DNA of 37,352 nt from a virus, in IMG/VR virus record IMGVR_UViG_3300046616_000099, positions 1-37,352 of that record. The stretch is one strand, 5' to 3'. A program made the position numbers and the translations under genes. The notes below the pieces were generated by a model. The model was given only the letters and a program-made list of their open reading frames with translations. It searched no databases and was not told where the DNA came from. Position 1 is the first letter of the stretch. Each line of letters opens with the position of its first letter. Below, one piece after another: positions 317 through 37,352 of the stretch.

Positions 317-745
317 TCAGACCCGGAGCGCGCCCAGGCGGTCGAATTCGGCCGTCGCTTCGTGCGCGGCCCTCACGATCTTGATATGCGGGAGCGTGCG
401 CAGGTAGTCCATCGTCCTGCCCACGCCCTCGCGCAGCAGCTTCATCTGGTCGCCCGTCACGCCCAGCTTGCCGACCTCCTGCGCGCGCTTCTGGATGGCG
501 GCGATGCACTCGACCATCGACTGCGCCAGCGGCAGCAGTTCGTGGCCGTCGGGCGCCAGCCGGCGCACCATGTCGGCATTGCTCAAGATGTCATAGATGT
601 GCTGCTCTTCCAGATGCGACTGGCCCAGCGCCAGGCTGGCCGAGTAGCCCGGGAATTCCATCTTCTGCCGGTCGTGCAGCCCCAGCGGGATGGCCACCGG
701 CTTCTTGCGGTAGGCCTTGTCTCGGTTTTTCTTTTTGCTGCCCAT
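317..745 (-). CDS. Conserved phage protein of unknown function
   Basis: This gene encodes 142 aa starting with a very basic segment (GSKKKNRDKAYRKKP) followed by a mostly helical, soluble body. I recognise the pattern KPVAIPLGL..RQKMEFPGY and LGVTGDQMKLLREGV as recurring in phages of Betaproteobacteria, always without an assigned role. The start is supported by GGAG six bases upstream of the ATG. It lies between the fragment of the interrupted gene and the O-like initiator in the leftward early operon, 16 bases before the O-like ATG, so it is probably co-expressed with replication genes. No enzymatic motif is visible. Confidence 0.75.
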   Translation of the reverse strand: MGSKKKNRDKAYRKKPVAIPLGLHDRQKMEFPGYSASLALGQSHLEEQHIYDILSNADMVRRLAPDGHELLPLAQSMVECIAAIQKRAQEVGKLGVTGDQMKLLREGVGRTMDYLRTLPHIKIVRAAHEATAEFDRLGALRV

Positions 746-748
746 ACT

Positions 749-997
749 TCACTCCACAGGGAACATGTCCAACGTGTGTTTGTCTTCAATCGGAATCGGC
801 TGGCCGGCGAGAACGAACGCCGTGCAGCAGGGTTGCCCGTCCTTCCCGTATTGCCATTCCGCCGGATATTGCGGGTGGTCGATCTTGAGGAAGCTGCGGC
901 CGAGGATGTCGCATTTCTGGTTGTCGTCGCATTCCTCCAGCGGCATGCCTTCGCTCATGGCCAGGTCGCGCGCACACTCGCAGCACCAGCCCGACAT
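749..997 (-). CDS. C-terminal fragment of an interrupted Cys-rich phage protein
   Basis: The 82-aa frame from ATG 997 carries paired cysteines (WCCECARD near the start, then single Cys at about 23 and 29, CC near residue 57) and looks like a small zinc-binding protein. The frame is open upstream of the ATG as PKYQPSNGTEGAIF, back to the element boundary at 1037. That segment matches the YRPSNGTEG...F..WC..CARD pattern I know from intact phage proteins of this kind, so the ATG at 997 is internal to the original gene. The missing first 23 residues are at 2129-2198, beyond the DUF5131 element. Whether this remnant is still made from 997 is uncertain, because its ribosome site is poor. Confidence 0.7.
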   Translation of the reverse strand: MSGWCCECARDLAMSEGMPLEECDDNQKCDILGRSFLKIDHPQYPAEWQYGKDGQPCCTAFVLAGQPIPIEDKHTLDMFPVE

Positions 998-1029
998 GAA
1001 GATCGCGCCTTCGGTGCCGTTGCTCGGCT

Positions 1030-1037
1030 GGTATTTC
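1030..1037. repeat. 8-bp target-site duplication, left copy
   Basis: GGTATTTC here is repeated exactly at 2129-2136, directly outside both inverted ends of the 1038-2128 segment. Deleting the segment with one copy of this octamer joins the two halves of the split gene in frame, giving Q-K-Y-Q-P-S-N-G across the junction. Confidence 0.85.
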
Positions 1038-1062
1038 GGCTATCCGGATTAGTGTGTGGAAT
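1038..1062. repeat. Terminal inverted repeat, left end of DUF5131 element
   Basis: The 25 bases beginning GGCTATCCGGATTA match the reverse complement of 2104-2128 (beginning GGCTCTCCGGAATA) at 19 of 25 positions. The shared core is GGCT.TCCGGA.TA...TGTGGAA. It begins immediately inside the 8-bp duplication, as a transposon end should. Confidence 0.8.
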
Positions 1063-1067
1063 CGGCC

Positions 1068-2057
1068 TCATGGTTGGATGCCCATCTCGTGTGGGAACCC
1101 ATCGTGCGTCTGGCCATCAAGCAGGCGCCCCGCCGATTTCTTCCCGACCCGATAAAGGTCAGGCTGGTCGTCCACATGACCGCCGAAGCTGGCCAAGTTC
1201 TCACGCCCGAAACGCCACTCATCAACGAACCAGTGCGCGATGTCGACCGTTCCCTGGTTGCCGCTGACATTCTCACCAGGTGTCCATTCGCCCCATTGTT
1301 TGAACAAGAAGGGCACGTCGGCTTCTGCGCACTGCTCACGCAGGTCGCGCGCCCACTCAGGGTGCATTGGCCGGGCATTCGGACCACTCTCGCCTCCTAC
1401 GATGACCCAATCAATGCGGGGCAGGTCTGGCATACGATTGCCATCGTCGTCCTCGCAATCTGTGGTGACGGTCAGCGGATAAATCTCCCGATGGCCATCA
1501 ATGTCGATGTGCGAGAGGTCGACTGGACCCAGCAGCGGCTCCATGGACAGGAAGCGTACGCTTGCCTCTGTGCGCAGCAGCTTCGGGATGTCGCGGTCGG
1601 CTTCGGCTTGGTTGACGATAGTGGCGCCCAGCCATACGTTGTCCGGCACGCCATCGAGGAACATCGCTCGCAGCATGGCGCCAGCGTTGCCGATACGCTT
1701 AGTCAACAGCAGCCAGTCGAGGTGCGGCGTATCTTGAATCAGGTTAGCCAGGTCACTGCGCCATTCATCGGCGACAGCGTTGTCGAACACATCGGCCAGG
1801 CTGGAGCAGAACACGCGCTGCCGACGACCATGCTCAGCGAAGAACTGTTCGTGCTTCGAATTCCAGGCCAGCGGCTTGCGCCAGTTCGCCGGTTTCGTGC
1901 GCACGCGCTCACCATGCGCGCCCCACTGGACTACCTTGAGGCGGTTGGACATGTCCCGCTCGGCATAGCAATGGTCGCAGCCAGGCGGCACCTTCGTGCA
2001 GCCAATCCATGGATTAAACGTGCTATCGCACCATTCGATGTTAGTTTTCTCGCTCAT
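1068..2057 (-). CDS. DUF5131 (phage Gp37/Gp68 family) protein
   Basis: The 329-aa protein starts MSEKTNIEWCDSTFNPW and has the family's three-cysteine signature at C20, C27 and C30 (C-x6-C-x2-C, GCTKVPPGCDHCYAE), then the conserved FCSSLADVFD, WLLLTKR, SMEPLLG and WVIVGGESG segments. This is PF07505, a radical-SAM-like family of unknown reaction found in phages and mobile elements. The three cysteines probably hold an iron-sulfur cluster. I recall relatives paired with a TcmP partner; none is present here. ATG 2057 is preferred over GTG 2066 because GTGGAA lies just upstream of it. The gene is the sole content of an inverted-repeat-bounded insert and has no coupling with its neighbours. Confidence 0.9.
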   Translation of the reverse strand: MSEKTNIEWCDSTFNPWIGCTKVPPGCDHCYAERDMSNRLKVVQWGAHGERVRTKPANWRKPLAWNSKHEQFFAEHGRRQRVFCSSLADVFDNAVADEWRSDLANLIQDTPHLDWLLLTKRIGNAGAMLRAMFLDGVPDNVWLGATIVNQAEADRDIPKLLRTEASVRFLSMEPLLGPVDLSHIDIDGHREIYPLTVTTDCEDDDGNRMPDLPRIDWVIVGGESGPNARPMHPEWARDLREQCAEADVPFLFKQWGEWTPGENVSGNQGTVDIAHWFVDEWRFGRENLASFGGHVDDQPDLYRVGKKSAGRLLDGQTHDGFPHEMGIQP

Positions 2058-2059
2058 GA

Positions 2060-2078
2060 TTTCCACACGTTATTCCGG
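2060..2078. repeat. Internal second copy of the element end motif
   Basis: Read on the minus strand, this 19-bp stretch is CCGGAATAACGTGTGGAAA. It differs from the corresponding part of the right end (2104-2122) at one base and is in the same orientation, 44 bp inward. It ends at the DUF5131 start region and may be a second binding site for a transposase or a regulator. Confidence 0.75.
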
Positions 2079-2103
2079 TTTTTGAAATTGTTCATTCACG
2101 CGG

Positions 2104-2128
2104 TTTCCACAAGTTATTCCGGAGAGCC
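2104..2128. repeat. Terminal inverted repeat, right end of DUF5131 element
   Basis: Its reverse complement begins GGCTCTCCGGAATA and pairs with 1038-1062 (19 of 25 identical). The outer edge abuts the right copy of the 8-bp duplication at 2129. Confidence 0.8.
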
Positions 2129-2136
2129 GGTATTTC
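2129..2136. repeat. 8-bp target-site duplication, right copy
   Basis: Exact copy of the octamer GGTATTTC at 1030-1037, on the N-terminal side of the interrupted gene (minus-strand GAAATACC inside the Gln-Lys-Tyr codons). Confidence 0.85.
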
Positions 2137-2194
2137 TGGCCGGCGCGGTCGACCAGCATGGCCGCGAAGCTTTCCGGGTAGATGGGAATGGTCC

Positions 2195-2641
2195 TCATGC
2201 CGGTTCCCCTTCGACCTCGCGCACCGCCAGGATCACACACGGCTCGGCCGCGTATTTCTTCCGCACGGTCGTGACGACGATCTGCGCGTCATCGGCCCAC
2301 ACGATGCCGTTGCAGGCGTCGGTCACCGCCTTGAGCACGTTGTCGGCGTCGGGCTTCTTGGTGGCGCGCACCTTGCCGGCAGCCGCGGCGATCTGCTTTT
2401 TCTTCGACCAGCTGACCGGAATGGGCATGCGCAGTTCCATCAGCACCTCGATCGGGGCAATGCTCGGCGCGCGCGCGGACATCGCCACCTTCGCCAGGCG
2501 GCTGACCACTGCTTCGTAGGCGACCGTTTCCGATGGCGTGTAGAGGCTGACAAAATCCGGCTTGCCCGGCCCGCCCTTGATGATGCGGGCGCGCGGCCGG
2601 CCCTTCGGGACTGGCGCCCCGGGTATCGTGAACTGGATCAC
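2195..2641 (-). CDS. rusA: RusA-family Holliday junction resolvase
   Basis: The 148-aa protein has the RusA layout: an N-terminal PGAPVPKGRPRAR segment, then the acidic metal site KKPDADNVLKAVTDACNG followed by WADDAQI. The expected catalytic carboxylates are D98, D100 and D117/D118, with K104 nearby. RusA dimers cut four-way DNA junctions made during replication and recombination, so this enzyme should resolve branched intermediates before packaging. The start is a GTG that overlaps the upstream stop as GTGA. The gene sits in the early operon after the DUF1364 gene, an arrangement common in lambdoid nin-type regions. Confidence 0.93.
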   Translation of the reverse strand: MIQFTIPGAPVPKGRPRARIIKGGPGKPDFVSLYTPSETVAYEAVVSRLAKVAMSARAPSIAPIEVLMELRMPIPVSWSKKKQIAAAAGKVRATKKPDADNVLKAVTDACNGIVWADDAQIVVTTVRKKYAAEPCVILAVREVEGEPA

Positions 2642-3075: not shown

Positions 3076-5048
3076 GCTGCCATCCCAGCGATCTGTCGTT
3101 CGTGCTGGAAGTTCGCCCGGATCAAGGCCGTGGCCAGCGGCGGGCAGACGCTATTCCCGCACATCCGGACCTGCGCCGACTTCGTCAGTTTGACGCGCGG
3201 CAGTTTCAGCGGGTCGCCCTCGGCTTGGTGCCCATTGGCGAAAAGGTGTTTCGGGTCGGGGATCTCGTCAATAACGTAATCCTCGGGGAACCCTTGCGCG
3301 CGGTATAGCTCATGCGGCGCCAACATGCGCAGGCCGATGTCGACGATCTCATAGTCCTGGCCCTGAATCGTCACCAGCCCAAACCGGTGCTTTGTGGTGA
3401 TGGTGTGTAACGGCTCTTCCAGTCTCGGGTCTTGATCGCTGCCGTAATACTTCACCAGAAAGGCCCGCACTTCAGCGTGGTGCTGGCCCTGCGCGCTTAT
3501 GGCCCCGATCGGCTCATTCGTCGCTGCTGCCGTCGACGTTCCGCGCAGCTTCACCAGGTTGCTGGTCACAAGGCGGTGATGGTCTACGGTGGTCACCGTG
3601 CTAATTGGCTTGTCGAGCGGCCAGCCCGGCGACTCGTTCCCGCCGAAGCTCTTTTCAAGGAACGCGACACTGAGCGCCTTGTTACCCTTCGCCGTCACCG
3701 TGCCCAGCGGTTCGTCGACCGGCTTGGCGCCGCTACCCCAGCGCTTCACCCCGCCGGGCGATTCTTCGCCGTGCGCCGCATCCACCAGGGTTGCCGACAC
3801 CATGCTGAAATGCCCACCCTTCACCTCCGCGCAAATCGTGCGTAGCGGTTTTTCCATCGACATGACGCGCTGCGTGCTGGCGTTGGCGTGCTCGCTGAGG
3901 AATGCCGTTACCAGTGCCGCCTTGTTCGATCCGACCACAGTACCGAGCGGCTTTTCGATGTCCAGCGCGCGCGGTGCTTGCCCTTCCCGTTCGCCATACC
4001 CGATCTGCACCATAGTGGCGGTGGCCAGCGCCTTCTCGCCGCGGTTTGCACCAGTGATAGTGCGGAATGGCTCATGCACGGATTCGCTGCGATCGCCGCC
4101 CTGGTGCGTCACAGGCACGATGGTCGGCACGACCACCGCCCGGTGGTTCTCCGTGGTCAGGGTGCCGATCGGCTGGTTTACGCTGACCGGCTTGCCCGAA
4201 TAGATCGGCCCGCCCTGGCCAACGATGAACGGCGTGGCCGAATTGACGACATAGCGCATGATGCCTTTGGCGATGCGGCGCAGCGTTGCCTCGGCCAGCG
4301 GCTTCTTACGATCGAAGATGGACGGACATGGCAGCGACCAGTCGATACACTCGGCCGCTGTGCGGTGCGGCTGCAGCTTCCCGGCGCGCACGGCTGGAGA
4401 ATCGGGCGCACCGTGCGACGCTTCCGGCCAAGCAATCGGGATTCCGTCGCGGCGCGCCACCAAGAAGAAGCGTTTCCGGATCGTCGGGGTGTCGTGCTCG
4501 CTGGCGCGCAACTCGCGGTAATCGACCTTGTAGCCGTGGCCCTCCAGCTGGCGCACGAAGCTGTCGAAGGTTTTTCCCTTCTTGGCCGGGTCGGGCATCC
4601 AGACTTCCTCTCCATCGACCAGCACCATCTTGAGAGGCCCCCACGTTTTGAACTCTTCGACGTTCTCAAGCATGATCACGCGCGGCTTGCACTTCGCCGC
4701 CCAGCGCAGTGTCACCCAGGCCAACCCGCGGATCTTCTTTTCCACCGGGCGCCCGCCCTTCGCCTTGCTGAAATGTTTGCAGTCGGGCGACAGCCACACA
4801 AGGCCCACCGGCCGGTTATCCGTCACCTTGATGGGGTCGATGTCCCACACGGATTCGCACAGATGGCGCGTGTAGGGGTGGTTTATCGCATGCATGGCCA
4901 GCGCTTCCGGGTCATGGTTGATCGCGATATCAACAGGCCGGCCAAACCAGGCTTCCAGTCCAGTGCTGGTGCCGCCGCCACCTGCAAAATTGTCGATGAT
5001 GAGTTCATGGCCAAGGTCCAGCTGCTGCGTGAACGTGTCGCGCTTCAT
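3072..5048 (-). CDS. DNA (cytosine-5) methyltransferase with eight internal repeats
   Basis: This 658-aa enzyme has C5-methyltransferase motifs in order: SAM loop FAGGGGTSTG at 21-30, the catalytic loop SPDCKHFS with C90, ENV at 128-130, RKRFFLVARR at 191-200, LRMLAPHELYRAQGFP at 573-588 and GNSV at 631-634. The catalytic loop reads PDC rather than the usual PPC/PC. Residues 290-555 hold eight copies of a P-[LI]-x-T-[IV]-[TV]-like motif spaced 32-46 residues apart, where the target-recognition domain belongs. It should methylate phage DNA, most likely to evade host restriction; no partner restriction enzyme is present. It is coupled by four-base overlaps to genes on both sides. Confidence 0.9.
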   Translation of the reverse strand: MKRDTFTQQLDLGHELIIDNFAGGGGTSTGLEAWFGRPVDIAINHDPEALAMHAINHPYTRHLCESVWDIDPIKVTDNRPVGLVWLSPDCKHFSKAKGGRPVEKKIRGLAWVTLRWAAKCKPRVIMLENVEEFKTWGPLKMVLVDGEEVWMPDPAKKGKTFDSFVRQLEGHGYKVDYRELRASEHDTPTIRKRFFLVARRDGIPIAWPEASHGAPDSPAVRAGKLQPHRTAAECIDWSLPCPSIFDRKKPLAEATLRRIAKGIMRYVVNSATPFIVGQGGPIYSGKPVSVNQPIGTLTTENHRAVVVPTIVPVTHQGGDRSESVHEPFRTITGANRGEKALATATMVQIGYGEREGQAPRALDIEKPLGTVVGSNKAALVTAFLSEHANASTQRVMSMEKPLRTICAEVKGGHFSMVSATLVDAAHGEESPGGVKRWGSGAKPVDEPLGTVTAKGNKALSVAFLEKSFGGNESPGWPLDKPISTVTTVDHHRLVTSNLVKLRGTSTAAATNEPIGAISAQGQHHAEVRAFLVKYYGSDQDPRLEEPLHTITTKHRFGLVTIQGQDYEIVDIGLRMLAPHELYRAQGFPEDYVIDEIPDPKHLFANGHQAEGDPLKLPRVKLTKSAQVRMCGNSVCPPLATALIRANFQHERQIAGMAA

Positions 5049-5572
5049 TTATGCGGTCTTTCGTATTGTTGGAGGATCGCCTCGATTCCTTCTTCGGCAG
5101 CCTGTGGCGCCGCGTTCGGGAACAGGTAGTGCTGCGCGTGCGGCTTGCGTAGGAACTCGATCACGCGGTCGTGGAATTCGCGCATGTCGTCTTCGCTGCA
5201 GCGGTTGAAGTCGATCGAGCGCGGCACAGGGAACACGCCACCCTTCGGGCCCGGCATCCAGTCGACGAAGCCGGCGCCCACCTTGAGCCACAGCCGGAAG
5301 GCTTCGAAGTCGTCGACGCGCTCCTGCGCTTTGAACACCTTGGAGATGAGGCCCATGTGCATCCGGTGGAACGGGCCGCTGCGCTGGCGCTGGATCTTGA
5401 GTTGGAAGAATTCACCCTGCGCCGCTTCGTCCATCGCGCGCACAAAACGATTCCAGGCGCGGGTGTCCTTGTCGGTGGCGCCGCTCAAGTTCTCCATCAG
5501 GAAGCGACGCACGACGGCCCGGTCCTCTTCGGACAGCTGCGCGTCGGTCTGCTTTACGAGAACGATTTCCAT
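5045..5572 (-). CDS. DUF1367-like phage protein
   Basis: The 175-aa protein has a central FHRMHMGLISKVF segment followed by FRLWLKVGAGFVDW and, near the end, the pattern SIDFNRCSEDDMREFHDRVIEFL. This resembles the DUF1367 family of lambdoid early regions (FHR..., SISF..M.E.EF...Y..VI..L). The family has no established activity. Its place between the GIY-YIG gene and the methyltransferase, ahead of DUF1364 and RusA, is that of nin-region recombination accessory genes. The stop overlaps the methyltransferase start (ATGA). Family membership is a motif judgement and moderately sure. Confidence 0.65.
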   Translation of the reverse strand: MEIVLVKQTDAQLSEEDRAVVRRFLMENLSGATDKDTRAWNRFVRAMDEAAQGEFFQLKIQRQRSGPFHRMHMGLISKVFKAQERVDDFEAFRLWLKVGAGFVDWMPGPKGGVFPVPRSIDFNRCSEDDMREFHDRVIEFLRKPHAQHYLFPNAAPQAAEEGIEAILQQYERPHK

Positions 5573-36704: not shown

Positions 36705-37352
36705 TTTCAAGTACTCCATCATCGACTTCATCGGCAGGCGCCGGGGTGCCGAACAGCAGGCGCTTCGCCTCGGCGCTGTTGGCTGCGTTCTGTTCGGCGA
36801 CCGACTTGCCGGCGGCGGGCTGGCCAGCAACGGCGCCAGGCTTCGGGGTCAGCGGGTTGCGCTGCATGCGTTCGGCCAGCGTGTTCCACTTCTCGCGCAG
36901 CTTGGCCGGCGACTGGATATTCGCGCACCAGAACGAATCCTTTTTGGCCCACAGGAACAGCTCGCACACTTCGGCATGCGTGCGGCCGTCGATCTCGCGC
37001 ATCAAGCGGATTTCATTGGCCCACACGTCGAAGTTCGCCGCTCGAGCGGTCGGGTTCACCTTGCGCACCAGGTCGAACATCCAGCGCGCCGCCTTGTAGT
37101 CGTCATCAGTTCCATGATGCTTTTTCGCCGTTTTCCCAGGGGTTGGGTTAACTGGTGGTTCATCTGATGATTCAGTGATGGTTATGGGTGCGGAATCTGC
37201 GGGGGTGGGGTGCGGATTCTGCGGGGGGGGTGGTGCGAAATCTGCGGGGGGGTGGTGCAGAATCTGCACCCCGCAAATTTTGCTCCCGTCGATCTGGTAG
37301 AGCGTGCTGCGGCCGGTCCTGAATTCACGGCGCACAATGCCCAGCTTCTCGA
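36697..37352 (-). CDS. O-like replication initiator, C-terminal part (runs off window end)
   Basis: This frame enters from the window's right edge and continues the 1-300 piece. Residues 88-114 of the joined protein are encoded by four iterons and form a Pro-rich linker (HHPPADFAPPPPQNPHPTPADS). Residues 144-225 form a helical domain (YKAARWMFDLVRKVNPTARAANFD and YVCELFLWAKKDSFWCANIQSPAKLREKW in outline), a pattern common in phage O-like proteins and probably the contact surface for the P-like partner. The stop overlaps the P-like start. The protein would open the origin inside its own gene and recruit the helicase loader. Confidence 0.85.
   Translation of the reverse strand, partial: EKLGIVRREFRTGRSTLYQIDGSKICGVQILHHPPADFAPPPPQNPHPTPADSAPITITESSDEPPVNPTPGKTAKKHHGTDDDYKAARWMFDLVRKVNPTARAANFDVWANEIRLMREIDGRTHAEVCELFLWAKKDSFWCANIQSPAKLREKWNTLAERMQRNPLTPKPGAVAGQPAAGKSVAEQNAANSAEAKRLLFGTPAPADEVDDGVLENA
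37188..37267. repeat. Four iterons: candidate replication origin inside O-like gene
   Basis: The 13-mer GTGCGRAWTCTGC occurs at 37188, 37210, 37233 and 37255 (the fourth as GTGCAGAATCTGC), spaced 22, 23 and 22 bp, about two helical turns, with G-runs between. The last two copies recur at 3-15 and 25-37 because of the terminal repeat. Below 37188 the sequence turns AT-richer (37100-37187), as in the lambda origin, where four iterons and an AT-rich block lie in gene O. Confidence 0.8.
37231..37352. repeat. Terminal direct repeat, right copy
   Basis: Exact copy of bases 1-122, marking the circle joint. It lies in the middle of the iteron array, where short repeats are likely to have determined the assembly breakpoint. 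Confidence 0.95.

Follow-up and report, generated by a model that had tools for sequence, protein, structure and literature searches.

Analysis of a 37,352-bp viral record (this whole stretch of DNA is termed the window) revealed a 1,091-bp mobile element at positions 1038 to 2128 that is, with high confidence, a mobile insertion cassette of the ISL3 family lacking a transposase of its own and probably mobilized in trans by an ISL3 transposase. The element carries one gene, encoding a DUF5131 protein, and is positioned within a cysteine-rich phage gene. The following features were assigned in this region.

749 to 1029, minus strand: interrupted cysteine-rich phage gene, distal part; joined product intact in L121 to L123
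1030 to 1037, no strand: left target-site duplication GGTATTTC, an exact octamer with the AT-rich pattern of other elements
1038 to 1062, plus strand: B end, terminal inverted repeat GGCTATCCGGATTAGTGTGTGGAAT
1068 to 2066, minus strand: DUF5131 passenger gene; cysteine motif Cx6Cx2C, radical-SAM-type
1086 to 1100, plus strand: B end, short inner repeat around CGTGTGGGAACC, overlapping the final DUF5131 codons (..GFPHEMGIQP)
2060 to 2078, minus strand: A end, inner repeat CCGGAATAACGTGTGGAAA, a direct repeat starting about 51 to 52 bp from the tip
2104 to 2128, minus strand: A end, terminal inverted repeat GGCTCTCCGGAATAACTTGTGGAAA
2129 to 2136, no strand: right target-site duplication GGTATTTC
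2129 to 2198, minus strand: interrupted phage gene, proximal part, placed by the rejoined open reading frame (ORF) and the L121 alignment

The imperfect 25-bp inverted ends match at 19 of 25 positions, both beginning with GGCT, and the flanking octamer is exact, as the preliminary description of this DNA had claimed. GG-initial inverted ends (about 20 to 30 bp expected) and 8-bp direct repeats characterize ISL3-family ends, and both are present in the window. In silico excision of the segment together with one octamer restored a 116-amino-acid ORF with the junction QKYQPSNGTEG. This ORF aligned without a break to uninterrupted genes located at the same place on three viral contigs (amino acid identity of 85% in L121, 75% in L122, and 74% in L123). 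L121 is a close relative, with DNA identity of 82 to 95% in the flanking blocks. The alignment of the window with L121 breaks at the element and the octamer is common to both blocks, which indicates that the insertion is a real event in the lineage of the window phage. The insertion into the phage gene is thus confirmed. The preliminary description had expected the rejoined 116-codon gene with this junction and had named two observations that would speak against it, a joined protein lacking any intact homologue and related phages with DUF5131 at this position lacking inverted ends or duplication; three intact homologues were found, and the latter point did not overturn the insertion.

The octamers were further compared in a control with 37 elements that had been selected for octamer agreement of at least 7/8. 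Only 1 of 1,332 mismatched left/right flank pairings was exact versus 35 of the 37 own pairs. The imperfect inverted repeats (19/25) would allow the appearance of an insertion to be a chance product of two independent recombination or assembly events, but the two octamers are identical, three relatives retain an uninterrupted gene, and 34 other elements have the same structure. Such a coincidence is scarcely conceivable and is excluded by the empty site. The contig of L123, which has the intact gene, also bears another cassette of the family (L083, 4717 to 5122, 406 bp, duplication AAATTTTC), which adjoins a homologue of window positions 327 to 719.

Pattern scans with the element ends yielded 91 viral loci. 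Among them were 37 distinct elements, that of the window included, with both ends and with octamers agreeing at 7 or 8 positions; besides the window element, 34 distinct elements on viral contigs had the same ends and exact 8-bp duplications. The octamers are AT rich (76%, compared to 45% in the flanks). An ISL3 transposase gene or its remnant was present in 19 of the 44 elements whose layout was analyzed, so that some elements consist of an ISL3 transposase and a passenger, and others, such as that of the window, of a passenger alone. Two representative transposases matched DDE_Tnp_ISL3 in Pfam (5e-53 and 2.5e-54) as well as HTH_Tnp_ISL3 and Zn_ribbon_ISL3. An independent scan, anchored on the transposase and making no use of the element ends, identified 28 full-length transposase genes. 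For 22 of them, inverted repeats and an exact 8-bp duplication mark the element boundaries, and in each of these 22 elements passenger DNA of 382 to 1,509 bp lies upstream of the transposase, between it and the A end. The earlier remark that 8-bp duplications and GG ends recall ISL3 was borne out by these data: ISL3-type elements with matching ends, for which a search had been proposed, exist and share the inner repeats and 8-bp duplications. The first of two alternatives offered at that time, namely that an ISL3-type transposase acting in trans on these ends carries DUF5131, gains support from the same transposase-encoding elements.

Exact 8-bp duplications also flank more distantly related ISL3 elements in Vibrio phages K256, Seahorse, and Val-yong3, Escherichia phage Fraca, Caulobacter phage DMCA, and Bacillus phage BSP9, and one with a 7/8 duplication was found in Lysinibacillus phage LspM-01. 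The adjacent passenger in K256, BSP9, and LspM-01 is a DNA methyltransferase. A 71-bp A-end query gave no match among sequenced phages, and the strict end pattern gave none in 399 Burkholderiales genomes, which is too little DNA to call the ends phage only. A transposase search revealed elements 93 to 97% identical in Burkholderiaceae genomes, with prophage-like surroundings in one and unclear surroundings in the other. Genome G537 contains two prophage-like segments, L210 and L211, separated by about 50 kb. They have 10.1 kb in common at 99.95% identity, and each bears the same methyltransferase-plus-ISL3 element, with an identical duplication; one of the two transposase genes is frameshifted. 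Pseudomonas phage vB_Pae_HB2107-3I carries a tandem pair of ISL3 transposase genes, each with an upstream gene, one of which encodes a Rha-family regulator; no clean duplication was found there.

Comparison of the ends revealed a two-part organization. In most elements, a second copy of the core repeat starts at about position 52 to 54 of end A, and end B contains a shorter inner copy near position 50. Such a second copy, which the preliminary description did not contain, is present at each end of the window element. The A-end copy is identical to the family inner motif (17/17), and the B-end copy has the spacing of other B ends (about position 50). The A-end copy resembles a second binding site. 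The idea that the inner repeat represents a nested second element was rejected because it occupies the same position in most relatives.

The transposase gene, or what remains of it, reads from A to B in each of the 19 elements that have one. Judged by these layouts, the family is directional, with genes running from the A end to the B end, and the window fits this pattern. Several cargo proteins open with a common QKPEYRVET-like peptide encoded by the A-end inner repeat; many close in "FHT...STR" or "..PH..", encoded by the B end, with the stop codon 11 or 30 bp from the tip. Dissimilar cargo proteins in L086, L087, L083, L124, L171, and L136 share N- or C-terminal peptides because their ORFs run into the transposon ends, and in some of these the stop codon lies within the inverted repeat. 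The DUF5131 gene of the window stops 30 bp from the B tip, as do the cargo genes of L124, L136, L173, and L177. Since DUF5131 relatives differ at the C-terminal end beyond the last conserved FP, the last seven residues of the window protein probably derive from the transposon end. Two relatives are, by their gene order, deletion intermediates between a full element and a cassette: L077 has a C5-methyltransferase followed by an 88-amino-acid ORF fusing the N and C termini of the transposase, and L133 has a 210-amino-acid cargo followed by a 129-amino-acid transposase remnant.

The window has an exact 122-bp terminal direct repeat (positions 1 to 122 and 37231 to 37352) and on this basis looks like a complete circularized phage genome. 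Its early genes are lambda-like (O-like replication protein, NinB, RusA, and YbcO). Neither the element nor the rest of the 37,352-bp record yielded an ISL3 transposase. The earlier statement that DUF5131 is the sole gene, with no transposase inside, is in agreement with the PF07505 match and the transposase search. The element is therefore not an autonomous ISL3 insertion sequence (IS); it combines IS ends and a passenger coding sequence with the lack of a transposase, the features of a mobile insertion cassette. Regarding the term "self-contained mobile unit," the mobile unit stands, and "self-contained" does not, as the cassette is nonautonomous.

We infer the following course of events. 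An ISL3 transposase supplied by another element (in a coinfecting phage, a prophage, or the host) would have recognized the two-part ends, consisting of terminal and inner repeats, and inserted the 1,091-bp cassette into a phage gene of the early region, with duplication of 8 bp. The shared ends and layout suggest that the cassette descends by transposase loss from an element of the order A end, passenger, transposase, B end. No donor element with both DUF5131 and a transposase was found. The DUF5131 gene is a passenger and not part of the machinery; it is oriented like the phage operon, and read-through probably leads to its expression as a normal accessory gene of the phage. The cassette might instead be a dead relic that can no longer move, with DUF5131 as domesticated phage cargo. 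In the whole circularized genome no ISL3 transposase was found, nor was a second copy of the exact 1,091-bp cassette found, but all four repeats, terminal and inner, are in place and the DUF5131 frame is open, so that a cognate transposase should still be able to act on the cassette. We consider the relic unlikely.

The cargo protein was assigned to DUF5131 (PF07505) with an E value of 4.6e-93 and 311.6 bits (gathering cutoff, 28.9). The ORF opens at a GTG at position 2066, and the probable start is an ATG three codons in (..ATCATGAGCGAG). Residues Cys23, Cys30, and Cys33 are kept in an alignment of 66 DUF5131 sequences. A structure was predicted with a mean pLDDT of 89.8. Structure comparison placed spore photoproduct lyase at the top (Z score of 12.8 over 209 residues, root mean square deviation of 3.7, about 9% identity), well ahead of the radical-SAM enzymes ranked next, with Z scores of 9.9 and below. 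Foldseek also ranked spore photoproduct lyase first, with an E value of only 0.011, and a sequence search of the Protein Data Bank gave nothing meaningful. The predicted fold is that of radical-SAM enzymes, closest to spore photoproduct lyase, with which DUF5131 shares three conserved cysteines. In contrast to the usual Cx3Cx2C of radical-SAM proteins, the motif is Cx6Cx2C. Members of the radical-SAM superfamily have a partial TIM barrel in which three cysteines bind a 4Fe-4S cluster. DUF5131 also matches two PADLOC candidate-defense models, PDC-M41B and PDC-M30B. It is reasonable to hypothesize that DUF5131 is a radical-SAM enzyme with DNA or nucleotides as its target; the protein may use radical-SAM chemistry, possibly with DNA as the substrate.

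DUF5131 is a widespread family. Window-type ends were found in none of 96 relatives, which indicates that the family is not tied to the transposon and that this was just the route by which the window phage acquired its copy, and a general search for inverted repeats and a duplication flanking these relatives gave just three weak, unrelated matches. These results bear on the second earlier alternative, that DUF5131 takes part in the movement as transposition machinery, recombinase, or accessory factor. DUF5131 is the only gene of the element, and a near relative in NCBIfam is named radical SAM mobile pair protein A (TIGR04471), although the score of 47.5 bits against a cutoff of 355 places DUF5131 outside that family. 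However, the same ends enclose unrelated cargo (methyltransferases, DpdA, NADAR, and others), the relatives lack such ends, and the predicted fold is neither that of a nuclease nor that of a recombinase. A role in movement is therefore unsupported and highly improbable.

DNA methyltransferases accounted for 8 of 46 cargo ORFs and 6 of 444 neighboring ORFs (Fisher P = 6.5e-6), an approximate ratio because cargo was screened by Pfam or PHROG and neighbors by iterated phmmer. Other cargo comprised DpdA, NADAR (twice), a subthreshold Mom match, and many unknowns. By codon-model gene calls, 20 of 25 transposase-less cassettes were codirectional with the neighboring phage genes, compared to 7 of 17 transposase-bearing elements (Fisher P = 0.02, post hoc). 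With all elements pooled and a crude ORF picker, no orientation bias relative to phage genes was detected. The methyltransferase cargo of L080 (10596 to 11438), an element without matching octamers, contains the protein runs NNNNN and CCCCCCCGGGG, which resemble triplet repeats. In the transposase-bearing element L233, the passenger upstream of the transposase (4001 to 5155) is presumably PAPS-reductase-like, as judged by eye, and is possibly another nucleic acid modification cargo.

The family probably moves phage genes, often those for DNA-modifying enzymes, between phages. Because the cargo includes methyltransferases, DpdA, Mom-like, and NADAR proteins, it suggests selection for evading host defense. 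We tentatively propose, with slightly less than even confidence, a phage-specialized ISL3 clade that shuttles single accessory genes, above all those for DNA modification and restriction evasion, and whose transposase-less cassettes become phage operon genes. In that case, DUF5131 would share the function of this guild, being a radical-SAM enzyme that acts on DNA or nucleotides. Little is understood of how single genes pass between unrelated phages, and the family represents a concrete vehicle. Its recognizable ends, sequence-defined layout, and matched transposase family make this gene traffic mappable and testable, and the cargo pattern provides a functional lead for DUF5131, a family without assigned function.

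Literature searches revealed no paper on a phage-borne, passenger-carrying ISL3 clade and none on DUF5131 carried by a transposon; specialist IS reviews were little covered, so this absence is weak. Mobile insertion cassettes and passenger-bearing ISL3 elements are already known. The former term is explained in PMC3129680, and an example is the qnrS2 cassette of Aeromonas plasmid pAC3 (PMC5444012). Like the window element, these cassettes have IS-type ends around a passenger, have no transposase, and lie inside a gene, and they can be activated by the cognate transposase of a related IS (PMC5444012, PMC3129680). Unlike the pAC3 cassette, the window element has two-part, ISL3-type ends, is carried by a phage, and has a phage-type enzyme, not a resistance gene, as cargo. 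Passenger-bearing ISL3 elements are described as "transporter IS," e.g., ISPst2, which has ends GGGTATCCGGAATTTCTGGTTGAT, 8-bp repeats, and two passenger genes (PMC6305408). Elements of this type resemble the window family in their GG..CGGA ends, 8-bp duplications, and passengers beside an ISL3 transposase (PMC6305408). The window element differs from them in having no transposase, and the phage clade differs in its inner repeats, in cargo located upstream of the transposase when read from A to B, and in its cargo spectrum.
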